Source: a virus. From it: a DNA stretch of 32,500 nucleotides. A model generated the notes under the pieces. It was not told the origin of the DNA. It saw only the letters and a list, made by a program, of their open reading frames with translations, and did not search any database. The position numbers and the translations under genes are program-made. The stretch covers positions 1-32,500 of the IMG/VR virus record IMGVR_UViG_3300045107_000453; one strand, written 5' to 3'. Positions within the stretch are counted from its first letter, which is position 1, and every line of letters starts with the position of its first letter. Shown piece by piece: positions 1 to 32,500 of this stretch.

Positions 1-95
1 GCTTCGGCTGCGACCGGACCACCGCCTGGCGGCGGTGGCAGCGGGCGTTGCATTTGGTGGCCGATCACCTCAACGGCGTCGCCTTGACGGCGTAG
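1..95 (+). CDS. C-terminal end of a DUF6362-like phage HTH protein (5' end outside window)
   Basis: The reading frame beginning at base 3 is open from the window edge to TAG at 93-95. It ends FGCDRTTAWRRWQRALHLVA followed by DHLNGVALTA. The R-T-x-W-R-R-W pattern followed by a helix and a terminal LNG resembles the recognition-helix end of DUF6362-type phage proteins, small HTH proteins found near phage early or regulatory genes. Only about 30 residues are visible, so this is a family resemblance from memory rather than a domain match. The other two plus-strand frames give low-complexity translations here. It would be the last gene of an upstream phage block, since a terminator hairpin follows before the methyltransferase genes. 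Confidence 0.5.
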   Translation, partial: FGCDRTTAWRRWQRALHLVADHLNGVALTA

Positions 96-323
96 TGTTT
101 TGGCGTGATTTGGCGGGTGGGATCGTGCATCCGCGTGCGTCTGCGGCGTGATGCGGCTTTCGCCACTGCAACAGATCCGCCCGTTTGGGGGTAGCATTTC
201 GGCTAAGGTCTGGACAGCGGTGACGGTCGAGGAAGCCGCCCGGGCATCGACGGGTCCTTCCTGGCCAATAGCCCATGCGGGGGGCGCGAGCGCGACGCTT
301 TTTTAGCATCAGGGCGCGAACAA

Positions 324-359
324 GGTTACCAGTCGGCCAGGTTACCGGCTCCGGTTACC
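324..359 (+). repeat. Three direct GGTTACC heptamers
   Basis: GGTTACC occurs at 324-330, 340-346 and 353-359, with start-to-start spacings of 16 and 13 bases. A further related pair, ACCACCCCAG and ACCACCCCAC, follows at about 357-386. The heptamer is not palindromic. Clustered short direct repeats just upstream of a terminator and a phage operon could be iterated sites for a phage regulator, but no binding protein can be named. Confidence 0.5.
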
Positions 360-403
360 ACCCCAGGCGCAGTGACCACCCCACCAGAATCTTCATTCAA
401 CCG

Positions 404-440
404 ACCCGCCCGGCGGCAACGCTCGGCGGGTTTTGCTTTT
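404..440 (+). terminator. Rho-independent terminator-like hairpin before the methyltransferase operon
   Basis: ACCCGCC at 404-410 pairs with GGCGGGT at 425-431 around a 14-base loop, followed by a T-rich run (TTTGCTTTT, to 440). It lies downstream of the DUF6362-like gene. It also falls inside the extended open frame that begins at GTG 372, which argues that translation of the methyltransferase starts after it. Confidence 0.6.
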
Positions 441-452
441 GGGATTCCCACT

Positions 453-1883
453 TTGAACACGCTCAACGTCGAGTACCGCAAGGTCGAGGCGCTGATTCCC
501 TATGCCCGCAATCCGCGCACGCACGCCGAGAGCCAGATCGCCAAGATCGCGGCCAGCATCGTCGAGTACGGCTGGACGAACCCGATCCTGGTCGACGGCG
601 ACAACGGCATCATCGCCGGGCACGGGCGTCTTGCTGCTGCGCGCAAGCTCGGACTGGCCGAAGTGCCGGTGATCGAACTTGGCCATCTCACGCCAGCGCA
701 GAAGCGCGCCTACGTCATTGCCGACAACCGGCTGGCGCTCGATGCGGGCTGGGACGAAGAGATGCTGGCCTTGGAGCTGGCCGAGTTGTCCGACGCGGGA
801 TACGACCTCGCCATGACCGGCTTCGAGGATGCCGAGATCGAGGCACTGCTCACCGGTGCGGTGGCCGTCGCAGAGGATGAATCAGAGCCCCAAGTCGACG
901 AGCCTGATGCGGCTGACGACGTGCCGGAAGCGCCCGTCGTGGCGGTGTCCCGCCCCGGCGATGTCTGGGCGATTGGCCCGCACCGCCTGATCTGCGGCGA
1001 TGCCACCGACCGGAACGTGGTCGCCGCGCTGATGGATGGCGAACAAGCCAGCCTGTGCTTTACCTCGCCGCCCTACGGCAACCAGCGCGACTACACCTCG
1101 GGCGGCATCACCGATTGGGATGCCCTGATGCGTGGCGTGTTCGCGCACCTACCGATGGCACCCGACGGCCAGGTGCTGGTCAACCTTGGCCTGATCCACC
1201 GCGACAACGAGGTGATCCCGTATTGGGACGGTTGGCTGCCCTGGATGCGCCAGCAGGGCTGGCGACGCTTTGCGTGGTACGTCTGGGATCAGGGGCCGGG
1301 GATGCCCGGTGACTGGGCAGGCCGACTGGCGCCTGCCTTCGAGTTCGTCTTCCACTTCAACCGGGAGAGCCGCAAGCCGAACAAGATCGTGCCGTGCAAG
1401 CACGCCGGACAGGAATCCCACCTGCGTGCCGACGGATCAAGCACCGCGATGCGCGGCAAGGACGGCACCGTGGGCGGCTGGACGCACAAGGGGCTGCCCA
1501 CGCAGGACACCCGCATCCCCGACTCGGTGATCCGAGTGATGCGCCACAAGGGCAAGATCGGTCAGGACATCGACCACCCGGCCGTGTTCCCGGTGGCGCT
1601 GCCAGAGTTCGTCATCGAGGCCTACACCGACGCGGGCGACATCGTGTTTGAACCTTTCGGCGGCAGCGGCACCACGATGCTGGCCGCCGAGCGCACCGGT
1701 CGGATCTGCCGCAGCGTGGAGATCGCGCCGGAGTACGTGGACGTGGCCATCAAGCGCTTCCAGCAGAACCACCCCGGCGTACCGGTCACCTTGATCGAGA
1801 ACGGTGGTATCGCGTCGGGTCAGTCCTTCGGGCAGGTTGCCGCTGAGCGCGCCGCCGACCTCGATGCCGAGGCGGTGGCATGA
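453..1883 (+). CDS. ParB-domain / beta-class DNA methyltransferase fusion, SPPY type
   Basis: The protein is 476 aa from TTG 453. The N-terminal ~135 residues form a ParB/sulfiredoxin-like nuclease domain, with YARNPRTHAE near residue 17 and the GHGRLAAARKLGL stretch near 56-68. An acidic linker and a RPGDVWAIGPHRLICGDAT stretch lead into a methyltransferase domain. Motif IV (TSPPYG, 204-209) precedes the SAM-binding motif I (FGGSGTT, 402-408), which is the beta-class order. SPPY is typical of N4-cytosine enzymes, though some N6-adenine enzymes also have it. The same frame opens at GTG 372, but that start would place the terminator hairpin inside the gene, so TTG 453 (GGGA 9 bases upstream) is preferred. 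The stop overlaps the next gene (ATGA). Likely role: phage DNA modification, possibly to evade host restriction. Confidence 0.88.
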   Translation: MNTLNVEYRKVEALIPYARNPRTHAESQIAKIAASIVEYGWTNPILVDGDNGIIAGHGRLAAARKLGLAEVPVIELGHLTPAQKRAYVIADNRLALDAGWDEEMLALELAELSDAGYDLAMTGFEDAEIEALLTGAVAVAEDESEPQVDEPDAADDVPEAPVVAVSRPGDVWAIGPHRLICGDATDRNVVAALMDGEQASLCFTSPPYGNQRDYTSGGITDWDALMRGVFAHLPMAPDGQVLVNLGLIHRDNEVIPYWDGWLPWMRQQGWRRFAWYVWDQGPGMPGDWAGRLAPAFEFVFHFNRESRKPNKIVPCKHAGQESHLRADGSSTAMRGKDGTVGGWTHKGLPTQDTRIPDSVIRVMRHKGKIGQDIDHPAVFPVALPEFVIEAYTDAGDIVFEPFGGSGTTMLAAERTGRICRSVEIAPEYVDVAIKRFQQNHPGVPVTLIENGGIASGQSFGQVAAERAADLDAEAVA

Positions 1884-3142
1884 ACTGGCTGGCCGACAAG
1901 ATCGAGCAGTGGCCGACCGCCAAGCTGCTGCCCTACGCCCGCAACGCGCGCACCCATTCCGAGGAGCAGGTGGCGCAGATCGCTGCCAGCATCGCCGAGT
2001 TCGGCTTCACCAATCCGATTTTGGCAGGCAGCGACGGCGTCATCGTCGCTGGCCACGGTCGTCTCGCCGCCGCCCAGAAGCTGGGTCTGGAACGGGTACC
2101 GGTGGTCGTGCTCGATCACCTGACGTCGACCCAGCGCCGTGCCCTGGTGATCGCCGACAACCGCATCGCCGAGAACGCAGGCTGGGACGAGGCGATGCTG
2201 CGAATCGAACTCGAAGCCTTACAACTCGAAGGCTTCGACCTGGACCTCACCGGCTTCGATGCCGACGCGTTGGCCGAACTGATCGCGGGCGACGAGCCGG
2301 ACAACGAGGGGCAGACCGATGAGGATGCGGTGCCCGAAGTCGGCGAGACGCCCACCTCGCGTCCGGGCGATGTCTGGATCATGGGCCCGCACCGGCTGCT
2401 GTGCGGCGATGCGACCGTGGCCGAGAGCTACGAGCGCCTGATGCAAGGCGCGGTCGCGGACATGGTCTTCACCGACCCGCCGTACAACGTGAACTACGGG
2501 AGCAGCGCCAAAGACAAGCTGCGCGGCAAGGATCGCGCGATCCTCAACGACAACCTGGGCGACGGCTTCTACGACTTCCTGCTGGCGGCCCTCACACCGA
2601 CCATTGCCCACTGCCGGGGGGCGATCTACGTGGCGATGTCCTCCAGCGAGCTCGACGTGCTGCAGGCCGCCTTCCGCGCTGCGGGCGGCCACTGGTCGAC
2701 CTTCATCATCTGGGCCAAAAACACCTTCACGCTCGGCCGCGCCGACTACCAGCGCCAGTACGAACCGATTCTGTACGGATGGCCCGAGGGGGCGCAGCGC
2801 CACTGGTGTGGTGACCGCGACCAGGGGGATGTCTGGAGCATCAAGAAGCCGCAGAAGAACGACCTGCACCCGACCATGAAGCCTGTAGAGCTGGTCGAGC
2901 GCGCGATCCGCAATTCGAGCCGACCCGGCAACGTGGTGCTCGACCCCTTCGGCGGTTCCGGCACGACGCTGATCGCCGCCGAGAAGTCAGGGCGGATGGC
3001 GCGGCTAATCGAACTCGATCCGAAGTACGTGGATGTAATCGTGCGTCGGTGGGAAGAGTTCACCGGGAAGCAGGCTACCCGCGAGGCGGATGGCGCGGTG
3101 CTTGATCAGGCGGCCAGCGATTCCTCGACGATCTCGCAGTGA
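1880..3142 (+). CDS. ParB-domain / N6-adenine-type DNA methyltransferase fusion, DPPY type
   Basis: This 420-aa protein is a paralogue of its upstream neighbour, with the same architecture. The ParB-like N-terminus has YARNARTHSEEQ at 19-30 and GHGRLAAAQKLGL at 58-70. It is followed by an acidic linker and a beta-class methyltransferase with motif IV DPPYNV at 199-204 and motif I FGGSGTT at 357-363. DPPY is the usual catalytic motif of N6-adenine methyltransferases. ATG 1880 overlaps the upstream stop by four bases, so translation is probably coupled. The ParB-like part may contribute DNA binding or nuclease activity, but its function in these fusions is not known to me. The gene ends close to the end of the converging minus-strand gene at 3106, overlapping it by 37 bases. 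Confidence 0.9.
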   Translation: MNWLADKIEQWPTAKLLPYARNARTHSEEQVAQIAASIAEFGFTNPILAGSDGVIVAGHGRLAAAQKLGLERVPVVVLDHLTSTQRRALVIADNRIAENAGWDEAMLRIELEALQLEGFDLDLTGFDADALAELIAGDEPDNEGQTDEDAVPEVGETPTSRPGDVWIMGPHRLLCGDATVAESYERLMQGAVADMVFTDPPYNVNYGSSAKDKLRGKDRAILNDNLGDGFYDFLLAALTPTIAHCRGAIYVAMSSSELDVLQAAFRAAGGHWSTFIIWAKNTFTLGRADYQRQYEPILYGWPEGAQRHWCGDRDQGDVWSIKKPQKNDLHPTMKPVELVERAIRNSSRPGNVVLDPFGGSGTTLIAAEKSGRMARLIELDPKYVDVIVRRWEEFTGKQATREADGAVLDQAASDSSTISQ

Positions 3143-3474
3143 ATCACGAAGCCCGTCAGGTAAGGCAGGCCGCGCGGGATGCCGTATTGCTTGCTGGTTT
3201 GGCGGCCAATCGTCCAGCTCATCCAACGCTGGGTGGCGGCGTGGATTGCGTCCGCCAGGGCCTTGCCCTCGACAAGCCCGTTCTGGACGTCGTCGGCAAA
3301 GTGGCGTCCGTGACGGCTGTCGAGGAAGACCCTGACCGATTCGAGGGGCTGGCAGGTGGCGTCGGAGATCGCGGTCATCGCGGTGGGCCAGGCGGCTTCG
3401 GCATCGTTGTTCATCGTGCCCCAAAAGCCCCAGGCTTCGTTCTGGGTGGCGGGGATGGTTTGCTTCGTGGTCAT
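3106..3474 (-). CDS. Conserved small phage/prophage protein of unknown function
   Basis: The protein is 122 aa, beginning MTTKQTIPATQ. ATG 3474 is preferred over longer upstream starts because AAGGAG lies 6 bases before it. No catalytic motif is recognised. The protein is soluble and mixed alpha/beta in appearance, with an aromatic N-terminal stretch (EAWGFWGTMNND) and a charged middle. It is the last of three small minus-strand genes that share one leader repeat, which suggests common regulation with the DUF3489 and DUF6900 genes. Its 3' end overlaps the convergent methyltransferase gene by 37 bases. It resembles hypothetical proteins seen beside DUF3489 genes in proteobacterial mobile elements, but I cannot assign a function. 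Confidence 0.75.
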   Translation of the reverse strand: MTTKQTIPATQNEAWGFWGTMNNDAEAAWPTAMTAISDATCQPLESVRVFLDSRHGRHFADDVQNGLVEGKALADAIHAATQRWMSWTIGRQTSKQYGIPRGLPYLTGFVIHCEIVEESLAA

Positions 3475-3507
3475 CTTCGTCTCCTTGGTTGATCGCTGCG
3501 ACACCCG

Positions 3508-3540
3508 TATGAACGCGCTGTTCGATTGAGAAGCCAAGCG
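3508..3540 (-). repeat. Leader repeat copy A
   Basis: First of three copies of a motif that reads, on the plus strand, ATGAACGCGCTGTTC, about seven variable bases, then GAAGCCAAGC. In this copy ATGAACGCGCTGTTC occupies 3509-3523, 34 bases from the start codon at 3474. The AAGGAG ribosome binding site of the gene lies between repeat and start. Copies B and C sit 35 bases from their own start codons, so the repeat keeps a fixed position relative to translation. Confidence 0.85.
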
Positions 3541-3593
3541 CTTTTTGAATCTTATTTCGGGGGCGGCGGCAGGTTTCGCTGCCCCGTTGTTGA

Positions 3594-4247
3594 TCACGCA
3601 ACTCGGTAGATGCGCTCGCCGCCCTCGGGCTTTTCCGAGGTGATGGTGAGTCCGAGTTTTTTCTTGAACGCCCCGGCAAAGGTGCCGCGCACGGTGTGCG
3701 CCTGCCAGCCGGTGACCTCACAGATCTGGTTGATGGTGGCCCCCTCCGGGCGCTGCAGCATCTGGATCACCGTGGCCTGCTTGCTGTTCTGCCGGGTGCT
3801 GCGCACCCTCTCGGCTTCGCCTCGCGAAACATCGCTGCGCTCGTTTGGCCGCAAGCTCGAAACTTCGCTGCGCTCGTTTTCGCGGGTGCGGGGCTTAACC
3901 CACGTTGCTTCGGCGGCGGTAACAAAGGCCTCCAGTTCAGCATCGCTCGCGGCGGCTTGCGCGCCTTCAGCGTTGGCGATGATCTCGTCGAGATGGGCTT
4001 CGAATTGATCGATGCCCGTCTTGTTCACGCCGGGGCGCGGCATTCCCAGGGCATCGTAGCCCTCGGCGGCGACGAACCAGTCGGTGCCGTCGGTGGTGAT
4101 CAGGGCACGGTTGAACATCCCGTCGAGCACCTTCTTGCGCGCGCCGCCTTTGATGTGGTCGGGGAACCAGTCGATCTTGCCTGCGCTGGTGTTGATGGCC
4201 TTGGCCAGGATGGCGTGTTGGGCCGGGGTCAGGTTGGTGCTGGTCAT
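3594..4247 (-). CDS. DUF3489 family protein with an in-frame inserted repeat
   Basis: The protein is 217 aa from ATG 4247, which has GAAGGAG just upstream. The N-terminal half (1-115) contains the LTPAQHAILAKA helix and a winged-helix-like region (GGARKKVLDGMFNRALI). The C-terminal ~65 residues (RQNSKQATVIQMLQRPEGAT onward, ending in IYRVA) match the DUF3489 pattern, a small predicted helix-turn-helix domain with GxxxxTVRGTFAGAFKKKLG. Between them, residues ~120-152 form a charged, repetitive linker (NERSEVSSLRP then NERSDVSRGEA) encoded by an imperfect 33-base duplication. Likely role: DNA-binding regulator of the mobile element. This is inferred from the HTH-like fold, with no direct evidence. 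Confidence 0.85.
   Translation of the reverse strand: MTSTNLTPAQHAILAKAINTSAGKIDWFPDHIKGGARKKVLDGMFNRALITTDGTDWFVAAEGYDALGMPRPGVNKTGIDQFEAHLDEIIANAEGAQAAASDAELEAFVTAAEATWVKPRTRENERSEVSSLRPNERSDVSRGEAERVRSTRQNSKQATVIQMLQRPEGATINQICEVTGWQAHTVRGTFAGAFKKKLGLTITSEKPEGGERIYRVA
3825..3879. repeat. Duplicated 22-base unit inside the DUF3489 gene
   Basis: Two 22-base copies with a single mismatch, at 3825-3846 and 3858-3879, are spaced 33 bases apart. On the plus strand each reads CGAAAC, A or T, then TCGCTGCGCTCGTTT. On the minus strand each encodes NERS(E/D)VS, so the repeat preserves the reading frame. The unit looks like a small interspersed element tolerated in a flexible linker. Confidence 0.75.
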
Positions 4248-4282
4248 GGGCTGCTCCTTCGGGGGTGGTGGATGACGATGTG

Positions 4283-4315
4283 ATGAACGCGCTGTTCGGG
4301 ACAGAAGCCAAGCGG
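4283..4315 (-). repeat. Leader repeat copy B
   Basis: Second copy of the motif ATGAACGCGCTGTTC plus GAAGCCAAGC. ATGAACGCGCTGTTC occupies 4283-4297, 35 bases from the DUF3489 start codon at 4247. The right half of this copy also forms one arm of an 8-bp hairpin at 4306-4328. Confidence 0.85.
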
Positions 4316-4328
4316 TTTCTGCTTGGCT
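4306..4328 (-). terminator. Hairpin just downstream of the DUF6900 gene, overlapping leader repeat B
   Basis: AGCCAAGC (4306-4313) and GCTTGGCT (4321-4328) form a perfect 8-bp stem with a 7-base loop. On the minus strand it begins 15 bases after the DUF6900 stop codon at 4343, so it could terminate or attenuate transcription between the DUF6900 and DUF3489 genes. The following T-run is weak, so regulatory RNA structure is as likely as a true terminator. Confidence 0.4.
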
Positions 4329-4342
4329 ACGCGGCTTTCCGA

Positions 4343-4549
4343 TCAGTCCTTGGCGATTTCCGCTTCCGATACCTTTGGGATCGATGCGCCGAGTTCGACG
4401 CCCGCCTTGAAGGCCGCTTCCAACGCGTCGCGGATGTTCCACACCGCCGTGTCGTGGAAGTCGAGCCTGTCCGAGTGACGGGTTTCCAGGGTCTCTATGC
4501 CCAGATGCTTTTGGGCGATCAGGGTGAGGAGGGTGTCGATCTGGCTCAT
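4343..4549 (-). CDS. DUF6900-like small protein
   Basis: The protein is 68 aa, reading MSQIDTLLTLIAQKHLGIET followed by LETRHSDRLDFHDTAVWNI and a helical C-terminus. The HLGIETLETR...SD.LDFHD.AVW..RDAL pattern is what I recall for DUF6900, a short single-domain family of unknown function found in plasmids and prophages. ATG 4549 has an AAGGAAAA ribosome binding site 6-7 bases upstream on the minus strand. It is the first of three small minus-strand genes, each with its own leader repeat, and stands head-to-head with the small terminase gene at 4656. Confidence 0.8.
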   Translation of the reverse strand: MSQIDTLLTLIAQKHLGIETLETRHSDRLDFHDTAVWNIRDALEAAFKAGVELGASIPKVSEAEIAKD

Positions 4550-4584
4550 GGCGTTTTCCTTTCGGGGTTGGTTGGCGTGACGTG

Positions 4585-4615
4585 ATGAACGCGCTGTTCC
4601 CGATGGAAGCCAAGC
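4585..4615 (-). repeat. Leader repeat copy C
   Basis: Third copy of the motif: ATGAACGCGCTGTTC at 4585-4599, then GAAGCCAAGC at 4606-4615. It lies 35 bases upstream of the DUF6900 start codon at 4549. Copies B and C also share the CCCCGAA(A)GGA segment containing the ribosome binding site, so the similarity extends through the whole leader. Confidence 0.85.
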
Positions 4616-4655
4616 TCAATCTGCGGACATGACGAACAAATGATTGAAGGTGACG

Positions 4656-5201
4656 ATGGGACTTTCCATTCGCGCCTACGCGCGCCACCGGGGCGTGTCG
4701 CACGTGGCCGTGAAAAAGGCCATCGACACCGGGCGGATCACACCGCTGCCGGATGGCACGATTGATCCGGATACCGCCGACGCGCAGTGGGCACAAAACA
4801 CATTGCAACCCCGCAAGGCGGCAACGCAGGAGAAGGTCAGCCCAGCAAAGGCGCGCGTACTGCCCGAGCGTGAGGTGTCCGAACCCGGCACCCCACCGTT
4901 GTCGGCGGGCGGGACATCGCTGCTACAGGCACGCACCGTCAACGAAGTGCTCAAAGCCCAGCTCAACAAGGTGGAGCTGGCGCAGCGCAAGAAGGAGCTG
5001 GTGGATCGGGCGCAGGCCGTGGCCCACGTGTTCAAGCTCGCGCGCATCGAGCGCGACGCGTGGTTGAACTGGCCCGCACGTATCTCCGGGCAGATGGCCG
5101 CCACGCTCGGTGTCGATGCGCACCAGATGCACGTGGCGCTCGAATCCGCTGTGCGCGAGCACCTGATCGAGCTGGGCGAGCTGCGCCCCAGAGTCGATTG
5201 A
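4656..5201 (+). CDS. Phage terminase small subunit (Nu1-like)
   Basis: The protein is 181 aa from ATG 4656. GAAGG lies five bases before it; TTG 4644 and GTG 4650 are possible but less likely starts. The N-terminal ~45 residues (SIRAYARHRGVSHVAVKKAI then DTGRI...DPDTADAQW) form a MerR/Nu1-like winged helix used to bind phage DNA at the packaging site. A disordered linker and a helical C-terminus (LLQARTVNEVLKAQLNKVEL onward) would oligomerise and contact the large subunit, as in lambda Nu1 (181 aa, the same length). It sits 10 bases upstream of a GpA-type large terminase. Head-to-head with the DUF6900 gene, it appears to begin the late operon. Confidence 0.85.
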   Translation: MGLSIRAYARHRGVSHVAVKKAIDTGRITPLPDGTIDPDTADAQWAQNTLQPRKAATQEKVSPAKARVLPEREVSEPGTPPLSAGGTSLLQARTVNEVLKAQLNKVELAQRKKELVDRAQAVAHVFKLARIERDAWLNWPARISGQMAATLGVDAHQMHVALESAVREHLIELGELRPRVD

Positions 5202-5211
5202 CTGGGGATGG

Positions 5212-7179
5212 ATGACGATGGACTACGAAGGCGCGCAGGAGATCGAACGGGCGTGGCGTGACGGGATTACTCCCGACCCGCTGCTGACGGTCTCGGAATG
5301 GGCCGATCGCCACCGGATGCTCTCCAGCAAGGCGTCCGCCGAGCCGGGGCGCTGGCGCACCAGCCGCACGCCGTACCTGCGCGAGATCATGGATTGCCTG
5401 TCGCCGACCTCGCCCATCGAGCGCGTGGTGTTCATGAAGGCCGCCCAACTCGGCGCGACCGAGATGGGATCGAACTGGATCGGCTATGTCATCCATCACG
5501 CGCCCGGGCCGATGATGGCCGTCTGGCCGACGGTGGAGATGGCCAAGCGCAACTCCAAGCAGCGCATCGACCCCTTGATCGAGGAGTCGCCGGTGCTCTC
5601 CGAGTTGATCGCACCGGCGCGCTCGCGCGACTCAGGTAACACCATTCTGGCCAAGGAGTTCCGCGGCGGCGTGCTGGTGATGACCGGCGCCAACAGCGCG
5701 GTGGGCCTGCGCTCGATGCCGGTGCGCTACCTGTTTCTCGACGAGGTGGACGGGTATCCGCTGGACGTCGAGGGCGAAGGCGACGCGATCTCGCTGGCCG
5801 AAGCGCGCACCCGGACGTTCGCGCGGCGCAAGATCTTCATCGTCTCGACGCCGACGATCTCGGGCGCGTCGGCCATCGAGCGTGAGTACGAAGCCAGCGA
5901 CCAGCGTCGCTACTTCGTGCCGTGCCCGCATTGCTCGCACCGGCAGTGGCTGCGCTTCGAGCAGTTGCGCTGGGACAAGGGGCAACCGGAAACCGCCGCC
6001 TACATCTGCGAATCGTGCGACACCGCGATTGCCGAGCATCACAAGACCTGGATGCTGGAGCACGGCGAGTGGCGGGCGATGGCCCCAGAGAACGGTGCCA
6101 AGACGGCAGGCTTTCACCTGTCGTCGCTGTACAGCCCGGTGGGCTGGCGCTCGTGGCGCGACATCGCTGCCGCGTGGGAAGCCGCCGTCAACAAGGAGTC
6201 GGGATCGGCCGCCGCGATCAAGACTTTCAAGAACACCGAGCTGGGTGAGACCTGGGTCGAGGAAGGCGAAGCGCCGGACTGGCAACGGCTGGTCGAGCGC
6301 CGCGAGGAGTACCGCATCGGCAGCGTGCCGCAAGGCGGTCTGCTGCTGGTTGGCGGCGCGGACGTGCAGAAGGATCGTATCGAGGTCTCCGTCTGGGCCT
6401 TCGGGCGCGGCAAGGAATCGTGGCTGGTCGAGCACCGCGTGCTGATGGGCGATACCGCACGGGATGCGGTGTGGAAGGCGCTGGCCGCGATGCTGGCCGA
6501 GAACTGGACGCACGCCTCGGGGGTGGCGATGCCGCTGGCGCGCTTCGCACTCGACACCGGCTTTGCCACGCAGGAGGCCTACGCCTTCGTGCGGGCCTGC
6601 CACGATGCGCGCGTGATGGCGGTCAAGGGTGTGCCGCGCGGCGCAGCCCTGATCGGTACACCGACGGCCATCGATGTCTCGCAAGGCGGCAAGAAGCTGC
6701 GCCGGGGCATCAAGGTCTACAGCGTCGCGGTCGGCATCGCCAAGCTGGAGTTCTACAACAACCTGCGCAAGAGCGCGGAGGTGGGCGAGGACGGGTCGAC
6801 CCCGGTGTTTCCGGCCGGGTTTGTCCATCTGCCCAAGATCGACGCCGAGTTCATCCAGCAACTCTGCGCGGAACAACTGATCACCCGCCGCGACCGCAAC
6901 GGCTTCCCGGTGCGCGAGTGGCAAAAGATGCGCGAGCGCAACGAGGCGCTCGACTGCTACGTCTACGCCCGCGCGGCCGCGTCAAGCGCGGGGCTGGACC
7001 GCTTCGAGGAATGCCATTGGCGGGAACTGGAGCGGCAAATCGGGGTCGCGCCCCCACCGGATGCGCCACCGCCCATCCACGACATCGAATTGAACGAGGC
7101 CACCCCCAGCGGTGGCCTCGCTGCTTCTGGAACCCGAAAAACCGGTCGACGCGTCATCCGAAGCCGTTGGCTTCGCTGA
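5212..7179 (+). CDS. Phage terminase large subunit (lambda GpA family)
   Basis: The protein is 655 aa; lambda gpA is 641. It packages phage DNA into the prohead with an N-terminal ATPase and cuts DNA with a C-terminal nuclease. Visible elements are a variant Walker A (KAAQLGATE, 76-84), Walker B (YLFLDEVD, 173-180), a coupling-motif candidate STPT at 213-216, and paired CxxC motifs (CPHC 239-242, CESC 267-270) that probably bind zinc. The nuclease domain starts with an acidic residue in GGADVQKDR (D385). The C-terminus ends in the basic RRVIRSRWLR tail typical of the family. ATG 5212 or ATG 5218 could be the start, both behind GGGGA. A perfect 10-bp hairpin lies within the last 90 bases. Confidence 0.95.
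   Translation: MTMDYEGAQEIERAWRDGITPDPLLTVSEWADRHRMLSSKASAEPGRWRTSRTPYLREIMDCLSPTSPIERVVFMKAAQLGATEMGSNWIGYVIHHAPGPMMAVWPTVEMAKRNSKQRIDPLIEESPVLSELIAPARSRDSGNTILAKEFRGGVLVMTGANSAVGLRSMPVRYLFLDEVDGYPLDVEGEGDAISLAEARTRTFARRKIFIVSTPTISGASAIEREYEASDQRRYFVPCPHCSHRQWLRFEQLRWDKGQPETAAYICESCDTAIAEHHKTWMLEHGEWRAMAPENGAKTAGFHLSSLYSPVGWRSWRDIAAAWEAAVNKESGSAAAIKTFKNTELGETWVEEGEAPDWQRLVERREEYRIGSVPQGGLLLVGGADVQKDRIEVSVWAFGRGKESWLVEHRVLMGDTARDAVWKALAAMLAENWTHASGVAMPLARFALDTGFATQEAYAFVRACHDARVMAVKGVPRGAALIGTPTAIDVSQGGKKLRRGIKVYSVAVGIAKLEFYNNLRKSAEVGEDGSTPVFPAGFVHLPKIDAEFIQQLCAEQLITRRDRNGFPVREWQKMRERNEALDCYVYARAAASSAGLDRFEECHWRELERQIGVAPPPDAPPPIHDIELNEATPSGGLAASGTRKTGRRVIRSRWLR
7095..7120 (+). other. Perfect 10-bp stem-loop within the 3' end of the terminase gene
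   Basis: CGAGGCCACC (7095-7104) pairs exactly with GGTGGCCTCG (7111-7120) around a 6-base loop. The sequence codes for NEATPSGGLA in the terminase tail. No T-run follows, so it is not a standard terminator. It could slow ribosomes, block RNA decay or set the packaging/structural expression ratio. Confidence 0.5.
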
Positions 7180-27876: not shown

Positions 27877-31019
<3,143 letters not shown>

Positions 31020-31020
<1 letters not shown>

Positions 31021-32500
31021 TACGATTCTCCTTGTTCTTCGACGGTAGACGGAGCAACCATCTTGATAAGTCCCTTGTAATGATCCCTGTCGACAGTCTC
31101 CATCAGCTCCAGTACTTCACGCAGTACAGGCTGTGTTTCAGCAAGGAGAGAAAGGTCGTGCTCAGGATCGGAAATCGCGCCCGCGTGCGAGTAGGTATTG
31201 AGCAGCCGCAGAATGCGGGTCTTCTTCGCGTTATCAAACAGCACACGGTCGAGGCGTGGCTGCAGATCGCCGCTCATCTCGGGGAAGCGGAATGCCAAGA
31301 ACGCCTCTAGCAAGCGGCGGGCAACATTGGGTAATCCGTAGTGATGTTCCAGTTCGATCACATCCTCACGGTTGGCTTCCACGTAAACGCGCTTGAACAG
31401 ATACTGGTACTCCGACTCGTGCTCTTCGAGGAGAGGGTCGAGATACCCTAGCTCACTGGTTCGCGATCCGTCGGCGTGTCGGCGAGAGCGAAGCAGGAAG
31501 AATCGGGCGGGCTGCGCATCAAGCTTCAGCTTTTTTCGGTGTTTGTTTATATAGTGGAACCAGTTCTTCACCAGCCTGAAGAACGAGAAGCTGTGCGTGA
31601 AGATGAAAAGCTGCCCGGCCTCCTTGGTACGCTCCTTCATGTAACCGAAGGCCGAGAACAGCGCGTTGTCGTCTAGGCTCGACACTGGGTCGTCAATGAC
31701 GACGATTCCGTTCTTGAGATCGAAAGACTTGTCCTGCAGTGACTTGAGGAAATACAGGAACGCTATCGCCGTACGCTCCCCCTCGCTCAAGTGCGCCACA
31801 TACTCGCCATTACGGGTCAAAGCGTAGCCAGTACCCTTCGTTTCGAAGCGCAGTTCGTCGCGGCCAAGATAGGCGCGCAACTCCGACGTCAGCTCATCAG
31901 CAGCGCGACGATGTTCGAGAATGTCACGCTCCAACGTTTCAATCTTCGTCTGCGTCTCGGTCTGCTGCTTTTTGACAGCTTCCAGCGCGGCGGTTGCAGT
32001 CTTTACAGCATCGGACAGTTGCGCAAATTCAGCCTGTGCCTCGGCAACGTACGAAACCTCCAGCTTCTTGCAGGCTTCATCTACGGAGGCCTTGAACTGC
32101 GCTGAGATCTGGTTGTGCTTCTCGATGACCGCGTTGAATGCGGCGGCAGAATCGGTGAGCGAAGAGCGCATCACACCAGGAACGGGTGTCGCCGTGGTGG
32201 TCGGTGCGAATGGCTGATCGCGTTTCGCAGCCACACGCGCAATGAGCGCGTCAATCGCAGCTCCCAGTTCCGAACATACCGCTGAAACATTTTGGCCCGC
32301 TGCCGACGCATCAGACGCGAGCGCCTCGTAGAAGCGCGAAACGTCGGGAAGCGACAGCGAGTCCAATGTCCGCTTGATCGACTCCAGCTTCTTGAGAAGA
32401 GCGGATAGGTCTTGCTGAAACCTCGCGAAGGCGTCGTTGAAATGGGCTTCGAGTGCAGCCCGACGTGCCCCATTAAGCGGTTGCAGACAAAAGCGGCAAG
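31020..32500 (-). CDS. AAA_13-family ATPase, candidate PrrC/RloC-type anticodon nuclease (N-terminus outside window)
   Basis: The frame stays open to the right edge, so at least 492 residues are visible and the Walker A region is missing. The visible part starts [20 protein letters not shown], a C-x2-C motif common in AAA_13 proteins. A long helical, coiled-coil-like region follows, then the ABC signature [19 protein letters not shown], Walker B/D-loop [18 protein letters not shown], and the switch THSFSFFRL. The C-terminus holds ARRLLEAF (R-x3-E) and, 40 residues on, NTYSHAG (His). This pattern is like the R/E/H anticodon nuclease site of PrrC and RloC. PrrC and RloC are encoded within type I R-M loci, as here. 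The stop overlaps hsdR. Nuclease activity is inferred. Confidence 0.8.

Follow-up and report, generated by a model that had tools for sequence, protein, structure and literature searches.

A conserved phage gene pair that joins ParB-like modules to two kinds of amino-methyltransferase

Described relatives and layout of the pair

Genes in which a ParB-like domain is fused to a DNA methyltransferase have already been published near phage terminase genes. For the ParB-Tls loci of Paracoccus phages and prophages, the available part of the source lists 36 ParB-carrying methyltransferases for N6-methyladenine or N4-methylcytosine (m6A/m4C) upstream of terminase (PMC6536676), and the accessible text of a 2025 survey states that N6N4 methyltransferases are frequent fusion partners of phage ParB folds (PMC12704722). 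Here we describe two such genes, designated gene 1 and gene 2, in IMG/VR virus record IMGVR_UViG_3300045107_000453; the window analysed is the first 32,500 bases of this 38,279-base record. The context of the two genes is the ParB-Tls arrangement, but a ParB-SPPY/ParB-DPPY pair is not described in the available part of that source (PMC6536676), and we regard the pair as a variant of a published class.

Several known phages carry comparable proteins. In the Acidithiobacillus phage AcaML1 (JX507079), the same ordered and overlapping ParB-TSPPY/ParB-TDPPY pair, gp24/gp25, lies between primase and terminase genes, with 62.5% and 78.5% identity to gene 1 and gene 2, respectively. A tblastn search detected ParB-N6_N4_Mtase fusions with the domain order of gene 2, among others in Wolbachia phage WO and in Vibrio, Gardnerella and Ruminococcus phages, and a terminase was annotated within the 2.5-kilobase (kb) flank in 7 of the 17 records fetched. 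These fusions differ from the pair in that 18 of 19 open reading frames (ORFs) carry DPPY, one (Streptococcus phage Javan191) carries DAPY and none carries TSPPY. The Javan191 gene (L273, 2468-3736) also shows an altered S-adenosylmethionine (SAM) motif, FLGSAS, and is possibly inactive. Two adjacent ParB-methyltransferases are likewise present in Aeromonas phage ST4 (L274) and Staphylococcus phage TPWB-09 (L278), but with DPPY in both members. The catalytic subfamily of gene 1 is represented by stand-alone TSPPY phage methyltransferases (HRTV-29 gp48 and CBB_157, both annotated as N4-cytosine enzymes, and one of Nostoc phage YongM), which differ in lacking the ParB module and in their gene context. 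M.PvuII (1boo), a restriction-modification enzyme, was the top functionally named structure for the gene 1 profile and shares the HPAxFP and SPPx motifs, but the matched chain has no ParB domain. Our literature search found no description of a two-chemistry pair, of accessory behaviour or of conserved recognition regions; subscription papers lay mostly outside this search, which leaves their absence unproven.

A preliminary description of this DNA, made from the sequence alone, had placed two overlapping ParB-methyltransferase genes with differing catalytic motifs at 453-3142, and both ORFs, their ATGA overlap and the two motifs were confirmed:

453-1883, plus strand: gene 1, ParB-like domain and beta-class amino-methyltransferase (TSPPYG, predicted N4-cytosine type), 476 amino acids (aa), TTG start
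465-854, plus strand: ParB-like (ParB/Srx/Noc fold) domain of gene 1, residues ~5-134, with AGHGR (GxxR P-motif) at residues 55-59
948-1772, plus strand: methyltransferase half of gene 1, residues ~166-440
1062-1079, plus strand: motif IV TSPPYG of gene 1, residues 204-209
1269-1568, plus strand: middle, putative target-recognition region of gene 1, residues 273-372
1880-1883, plus strand: start/stop overlap ATGA of gene 1 and gene 2
1880-3142, plus strand: gene 2, ParB-like domain and beta-class amino-methyltransferase (TDPPYNV, predicted N6-adenine type), 420 aa
1898-2281, plus strand: ParB-like domain of gene 2, residues ~7-134, with AGHGR at residues 57-61
2471-2491, plus strand: motif IV TDPPYNV of gene 2, residues 198-204
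2696-2860, plus strand: middle, putative target-recognition region of gene 2, residues 273-327

In both proteins, a linker connects a ParB-like domain to a beta-class amino-methyltransferase. N6_N4_Mtase (Pfam) was matched in both, and phrog_498 across almost the full length of both. The Pfam ParB_N score exceeded the cut-off of 26.3 bits in gene 2 (28.2) but fell slightly short of it in gene 1 (23.8), and the curated ParB/RepB/Spo0J model TIGR00180, which represents canonical ParB, was not reached by either protein (24.4 and 29.9 bits for a cut-off of 58.45). No helix-turn-helix (HTH) family was among the Pfam matches of the two proteins. Motif IV precedes motif I (the SAM motif) in gene 1 (TSPPYG...EPFGGSGTT) and in gene 2 (TDPPYNV...DPFGGSGTT), which is the beta-class order.

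Conservation of the pair and chimeric origin of gene 1

The gene 1 protein was used as a query, and the best 80 of 493 viral loci and the best 80 of 186 genome loci were inspected; these closest relatives are mostly Proteobacteria by record title. Gene 2 lay directly after gene 1 in 77/80 viral and 78/80 genome loci, and all five misses were at a contig end. With gene 2 as the query (80 loci), 73 had one gene 1 ahead, one had gene 1 split into two ORFs, and the remaining six started too near a contig end to hold it. The pair is a real unit and not a chance juxtaposition. The split gene 1 (L132, 196-1736, plus strand) possibly reflects a frameshift. A 4-base in-frame overlap, ATGA or GTGA, joined the genes in 77/77 viral and 74/78 genome pairs. 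The overlap is not universal, being absent from the genome pairs L209, L227, L228 and L231, as well as from L085, L086 and L248 in two other viral sets.

The catalytic motifs were invariant: TSPPY was kept in 206/206 distinct gene-1-type ORFs and DPPY in 194/194 distinct gene-2 ORFs, in a set that includes near-copies and overlapping loci and in which one of the 206 (L314) lacks ParB. Nine gene-2 ORFs read QDPPY or MDPPY at motif IV. The arginine of GxxR was kept in all copies scored (203/203 for gene 1 and 194/194 for gene 2). The median ratio of nonsynonymous to synonymous substitution rates (dN/dS) was 0.16 for gene 1 and 0.13 for gene 2 (253 pairs of 23 loci), at median dS values of 1.05 and 0.90 and with stop-to-stop ORFs that include some upstream sequence, indicating that both genes are under purifying selection. 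The distances of gene 1 and gene 2 were correlated (Mantel r 0.79; 0/2000 permutations as high). In beta-class enzymes, the recognition region is expected in the middle part of the protein. When rows were thinned below 92% identity, in a sample of mostly close relatives, mean pairwise identity was higher in the middle region than in the other six regions scored (0.83 for gene 1, 66 rows; 0.88 for gene 2, 44 rows), and the ParB domains had 0.78 (gene 1) and 0.77 (gene 2). Because the middle region was the best conserved, we suggest that each enzyme recognises one fixed motif and does not have a diversifying specificity.

The preliminary description regarded the genes as a duplicated pair that shared a whole layout and had diverged in chemistry. 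The domain order is indeed shared and the ParB halves resemble duplicates, but the catalytic halves belong to different subfamilies. BLASTP aligned gene 1 with gene 2 at 54% identity over gene 1 residues 5-208 and at 47% over residues 375-438, and no significant alignment was obtained between residues 208 and 375. The methyltransferase tree was a quick tree with long branches and with the motif columns included, from which the gene-2 rows L227 and L254 were omitted because of inteins. In this tree, the gene 1 half joined six stand-alone TSPPY phage enzymes (support 99), and the gene 2 half joined ParB-DPPY fusions of other phages, next to Wolbachia phage WO (99). A single clade of both methyltransferase halves was rejected by the approximately unbiased (AU) test (p-AU 0.019), performed without the four long-branch rows L292, L283, L286 and L278b. 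When the catalytic half of gene 1 was searched alone, the stand-alone enzymes ranked next after AcaML1; the six, fetched from 37 further rows among the matches listed (710 records matched), all carry TSPPY without ParB.

In the ParB tree, constructed without L224 gene 2, L227 and L231 gene 2, L282, L286 and L298, the gene-1 and gene-2 ParB sets were joined weakly (67/78). AcaML1 departs from the pair of the window at this point, as its gene-1 ParB was placed beside the gene-2 ParBs. This placement hints at gene conversion, which we do not claim because monophyly of the gene-1 ParBs was not rejected (p-AU 0.34). Tandem duplication of one ParB-methyltransferase with subsequent divergence, in which both halves would be sisters, is a very improbable origin: the 54% identity of the ParB halves and their weak union in the best tree agree with it, but plain duplication is ruled out for the catalytic halves by the rejected clade and by the strongly supported grouping of gene 1 with stand-alone TSPPY enzymes. 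As a whole, these comparisons indicate a chimeric gene 1, in which a ParB module is combined with a TSPPY enzyme of the N4-cytosine type, and the simplest history would be the joining of a ParB module like that of gene 2 to a TSPPY enzyme.

Gene 1 and gene 2 also differ in their dependence on each other. We searched 300 genomes spread evenly over one bacterial order, presumably Burkholderiales, to which a Burkholderiaceae genome belongs. With a probe specific to gene 1, 21 ParB-fused copies were detected in 15 genomes, all 21 with a DPPY ParB-methyltransferase next in line; only L304 was exceptional in spacing, with a gap of ~480 bases between the two genes. Sequence inspection located the ParB domain in gene 1 of L310, L312 and L324 and in gene 2 of L311, and eight further matches to the gene-1 probe had no ParB. 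A gene-2-specific probe detected 28 close copies in 21 genomes, in addition to four weaker matches (E 1e-21 to 1e-17) that were kept outside this set. Seven of the 28 copies, from six genomes, were without gene 1; these kept DUF3489 (six) or phrog_8020 (one) as a neighbour, and no terminase was present in the short stretches fetched around them. Considering that 7/28 copies are without gene 1, gene 2 does not need it; no ParB-fused gene 1 in these sets stood without gene 2, save at contig ends. The sampled sequences thereby indicate that gene 2 is independent of gene 1 and that gene 1 is an accessory. In the gene-2 tree, a single clade of paired copies was weakly rejected (p-AU 0.041) and the starred branches force at least three switches between the paired and unpaired states, suggesting that gene 1 was gained or lost repeatedly.

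Two observations support the TTG start of gene 1: at this position relatives carry TTG (182) or CTG (52), among at least 255 ORFs, and ahead of it the 26 loci inspected hold no conserved reading frame. An alternative GTG start at 372 was ruled out, as the upstream reading frame is not conserved. Directly ahead of the TTG, a stable hairpin and, after it, a T-rich stretch occupy 403-440 (z -3.4), and a similar hairpin was found ahead of gene 1 in four of five relatives folded. It was absent from the list produced by a terminator scan of 1-5300, the count of which was close to that of shuffles, and no promoter match was obtained in 1-5300. The hairpin and the conserved TTG/CTG start may keep gene 1 expression low.

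Three variants of these genes were noted among the relatives. L314 holds a ParB-less relative of the gene 1 catalytic half (1248-2271, plus strand; 66% identity over the probe), with no gene 2 within the 3.5 kb fetched. In L315, a stand-alone TSPPY methyltransferase (1314-2220, plus strand) overlaps a second methyltransferase (2212-2986, plus strand) that is Dam-like by eye; TSPPY and DPPY enzymes are paired in another way in this locus. An intein-like insert interrupts the DPPY methyltransferase, a gene 2 homologue, in L228 (6382-8367) and also in L227, L254 and L311. It sits after the HP of HPTMKP, with an HP|C junction at its start in each of the four and an HN|T junction at its end in L228; the L228 insert gave Pfam Intein_splicing and Hint_2 matches, both below the cut-off.

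Predicted target bases and the ParB-like module

The target base was judged by a profile search against PDB sequences. Among functionally named enzymes, the gene 1 profile matched PvuII (N4-cytosine) with 53.1 bits, a rotifer N4C enzyme with 39 and adenine enzymes with 26-33. The gene 1 sequence alone also gave PvuII as the leading match (52 bits), with the rotifer enzyme (32.7) and CcrM (32.4) tied. The gene 2 profile matched the adenine enzymes M1.HpyAVI, M.BceJIV, MboIIA, CcrM and RsrI with 39-49 bits, compared with 38 bits for rotifer N4C and 27 for PvuII. In addition, HPAVFP of gene 1 resembles HPARFP of PvuII, and HPTMKP of gene 2 resembles HPTQKP of CcrM. Gene 1 thus combines an SPPY motif IV with a profile nearer to N4-cytosine than to adenine enzymes and probably makes N4-methylcytosine (4mC); gene 2 combines a DPPY motif IV with a profile nearer to adenine enzymes and probably makes N6-methyladenine (6mA). 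The chemistry considered likely in the preliminary description therefore agrees with the sequence profiles.

Fold comparison was carried out with the gene 1 model (mean predicted local distance difference test score, pLDDT, 66). Residues 3-98 matched Srx (sulfiredoxin), Noc, ParB and KorB (Z 9-11.5), and residues ~170-450 matched beta-class methyltransferases (Z 13-16). Structural prediction, to which the preliminary description had pointed for the ParB-like domain, was thus informative for gene 1 and not for gene 2, the model of which had a mean pLDDT of 58. We claim nothing about the recognition fold of gene 1, because most of residues 273-379 were below pLDDT 50.

The ParB subtype GHLR was found on gene 2 in 4 of 197 distinct pairs (L227, L228, L231 and L311) and on gene 1 in one (L324), and three gene-1 copies were unclassified. 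One catalytic half can bear different ParB subtypes, and the members of one pair can differ in subtype, which indicates from the sequences at hand that the module is exchangeable. According to the accessible text of the 2025 survey, 28 ParB-fold proteins of many kinds were purified, of which 11 bound nucleoside triphosphate (NTP) via the GxxR arginine; the binders include bacterial ParB fusions to SAM-dependent methyltransferases, which bind adenosine triphosphate (ATP) (PMC12704722). In the same text the role of phage ParB-methyltransferase fusions is left open (PMC12704722), in line with the earlier remark that such a domain on a methyltransferase is poorly understood. The pair offers a natural comparison for this question, as a single operon here combines similar ParB front ends with two catalytic halves that differ in predicted chemistry. 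Relatives that are without one member, are ParB-less or have a swapped ParB would allow small gene sets to test what ParB adds to methylation, and, as a second question, whether two marked bases benefit a phage more than a single one.

Genomic context and proposed role

The order downstream of the pair is phrog_8020, DUF3489 and terminase, with the following features and their recurrence among loci with room to hold them:

3106-3597, minus strand: conserved neighbour phrog_8020, function unknown, in 63/74 genome loci
3594-4295, minus strand: conserved neighbour DUF3489, in 71/74 genome loci; start as scanned, provisional
4644-5201, plus strand: terminase small subunit (phrog_57), in 66/73 loci
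5212-7179, plus strand: terminase large subunit (TerL), lambda gpA type, in 62/68 genome loci

Upstream of the pair, the two relatives examined carry a Cas4-type exonuclease and a primase (L168) or a primase (AcaML1). No nuclease, such as the cognate endonuclease of a type II restriction-modification system, was recognised beside the pair with Pfam, phrog or AcaML1 comparisons; the window holds 452 bases upstream, and unnamed neighbours such as phrog_8020 could be one.

The explanation that we consider probable, on balance, is that gene 1 and gene 2 form a module of solitary phage methyltransferases that masks two kinds of site with ParB-assisted loading. Gene 2 is probably the older resident, the ParB-DPPY fusion being widespread in phages, and gene 1 would be an accessory placed ahead of it, with a similar ParB module on an unrelated TSPPY enzyme. 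The overlap suggests coupled translation. Each enzyme probably reads one fixed motif, and both would modify phage DNA once it is replicated but not yet packaged, yielding packaged DNA with two kinds of mark, whose most likely benefit would be protection from host restriction. The ParB module, in which the GxxR arginine is kept and no HTH or dimerisation domain was detected, is probably an NTP binder that keeps the methyltransferase on DNA or loads it there. A stronger form of this proposal, which we consider doubtful, is that phages fit the module to unrelated methyltransferases as an interchangeable device for DNA loading, switched by NTP; shortly before packaging, it would spread both enzymes over the replicated phage DNA and write 4mC and 6mA at fixed motifs, that is, ParB-guided methylation.

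Several observations weigh against the masking module. The top PDB match of both gene profiles was TTHA0409, an uncharacterised protein. Structure comparison of gene 1 did not separate N4 from N6 enzymes (Z 15.3 for PvuII, 15.9 for CcrM and 16.1 for M.BceJIV), and structure was dropped as evidence of the target base because these scores do not discriminate. The ParB domain of gene 2 was modelled with low confidence. NTP binding was lacking in 17 of the 28 ParB-fold proteins that the survey purified, and its accessible text mentions no N6N4-methyltransferase fusion as an NTP binder (PMC12704722). Finally, the recognition regions are conserved, although masking against varied host restriction systems might lead one to expect variation, and this conservation is no less compatible with a fixed regulatory mark.

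Given the strong conservation of the recognition regions, the strongest rival is a fixed epigenetic signal, in which the marks regulate expression or replication of the phage or lysogen as do phage methyltransferases that mimic CcrM or Dam; we judge it rather unlikely but well worth weighing. These regions are the best-conserved parts of proteins found in phages of many bacterial families, copies occur in bacterial genome contigs, and phage methyltransferases that copy host CcrM specificity have been published, as far as the available parts of the two sources indicate (PMC7139368, PMC6536676). Against a signal stand the location of the pair near terminase and the lack of an identified host enzyme of matching specificity, for which no search was made.

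A role in packaging, in which the ParB-methyltransferases mark or are steered to the packaging region and the terminase treats methylated DNA differently, appears improbable. It would account for the position of the pair upstream of terminase in 62/68 genome loci, and a guiding role of ParB in packaging was proposed for ParB-Tls loci in the available part of PMC6536676, citing Iyer et al. 2013. The terminase here is of the lambda gpA, cos-cutting type, which speaks against such a role, as does the absence of gene 1 from some loci with the same neighbours. We know of no methylation control of a terminase of this type, which also counts against packaging. These functional alternatives to masking are not mutually exclusive. 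That one of the two genes is catalytically dead or redundant and kept by linkage alone is hardly credible, since the weak start and hairpin of gene 1, which may lower its expression, and its absence from 7/28 loci are set against purifying selection on both genes and invariant catalytic motifs.

Far downstream in the window, past the phage lysozyme gene, two minus-strand genes encode a type I restriction subunit (27877-31020; HSDR_N, SWI2_SNF2 and T1RH-like_C) and an AAA_13 ATPase (31020-32366). The genes of 27877-32366 are either host DNA past the prophage end or phage cargo.

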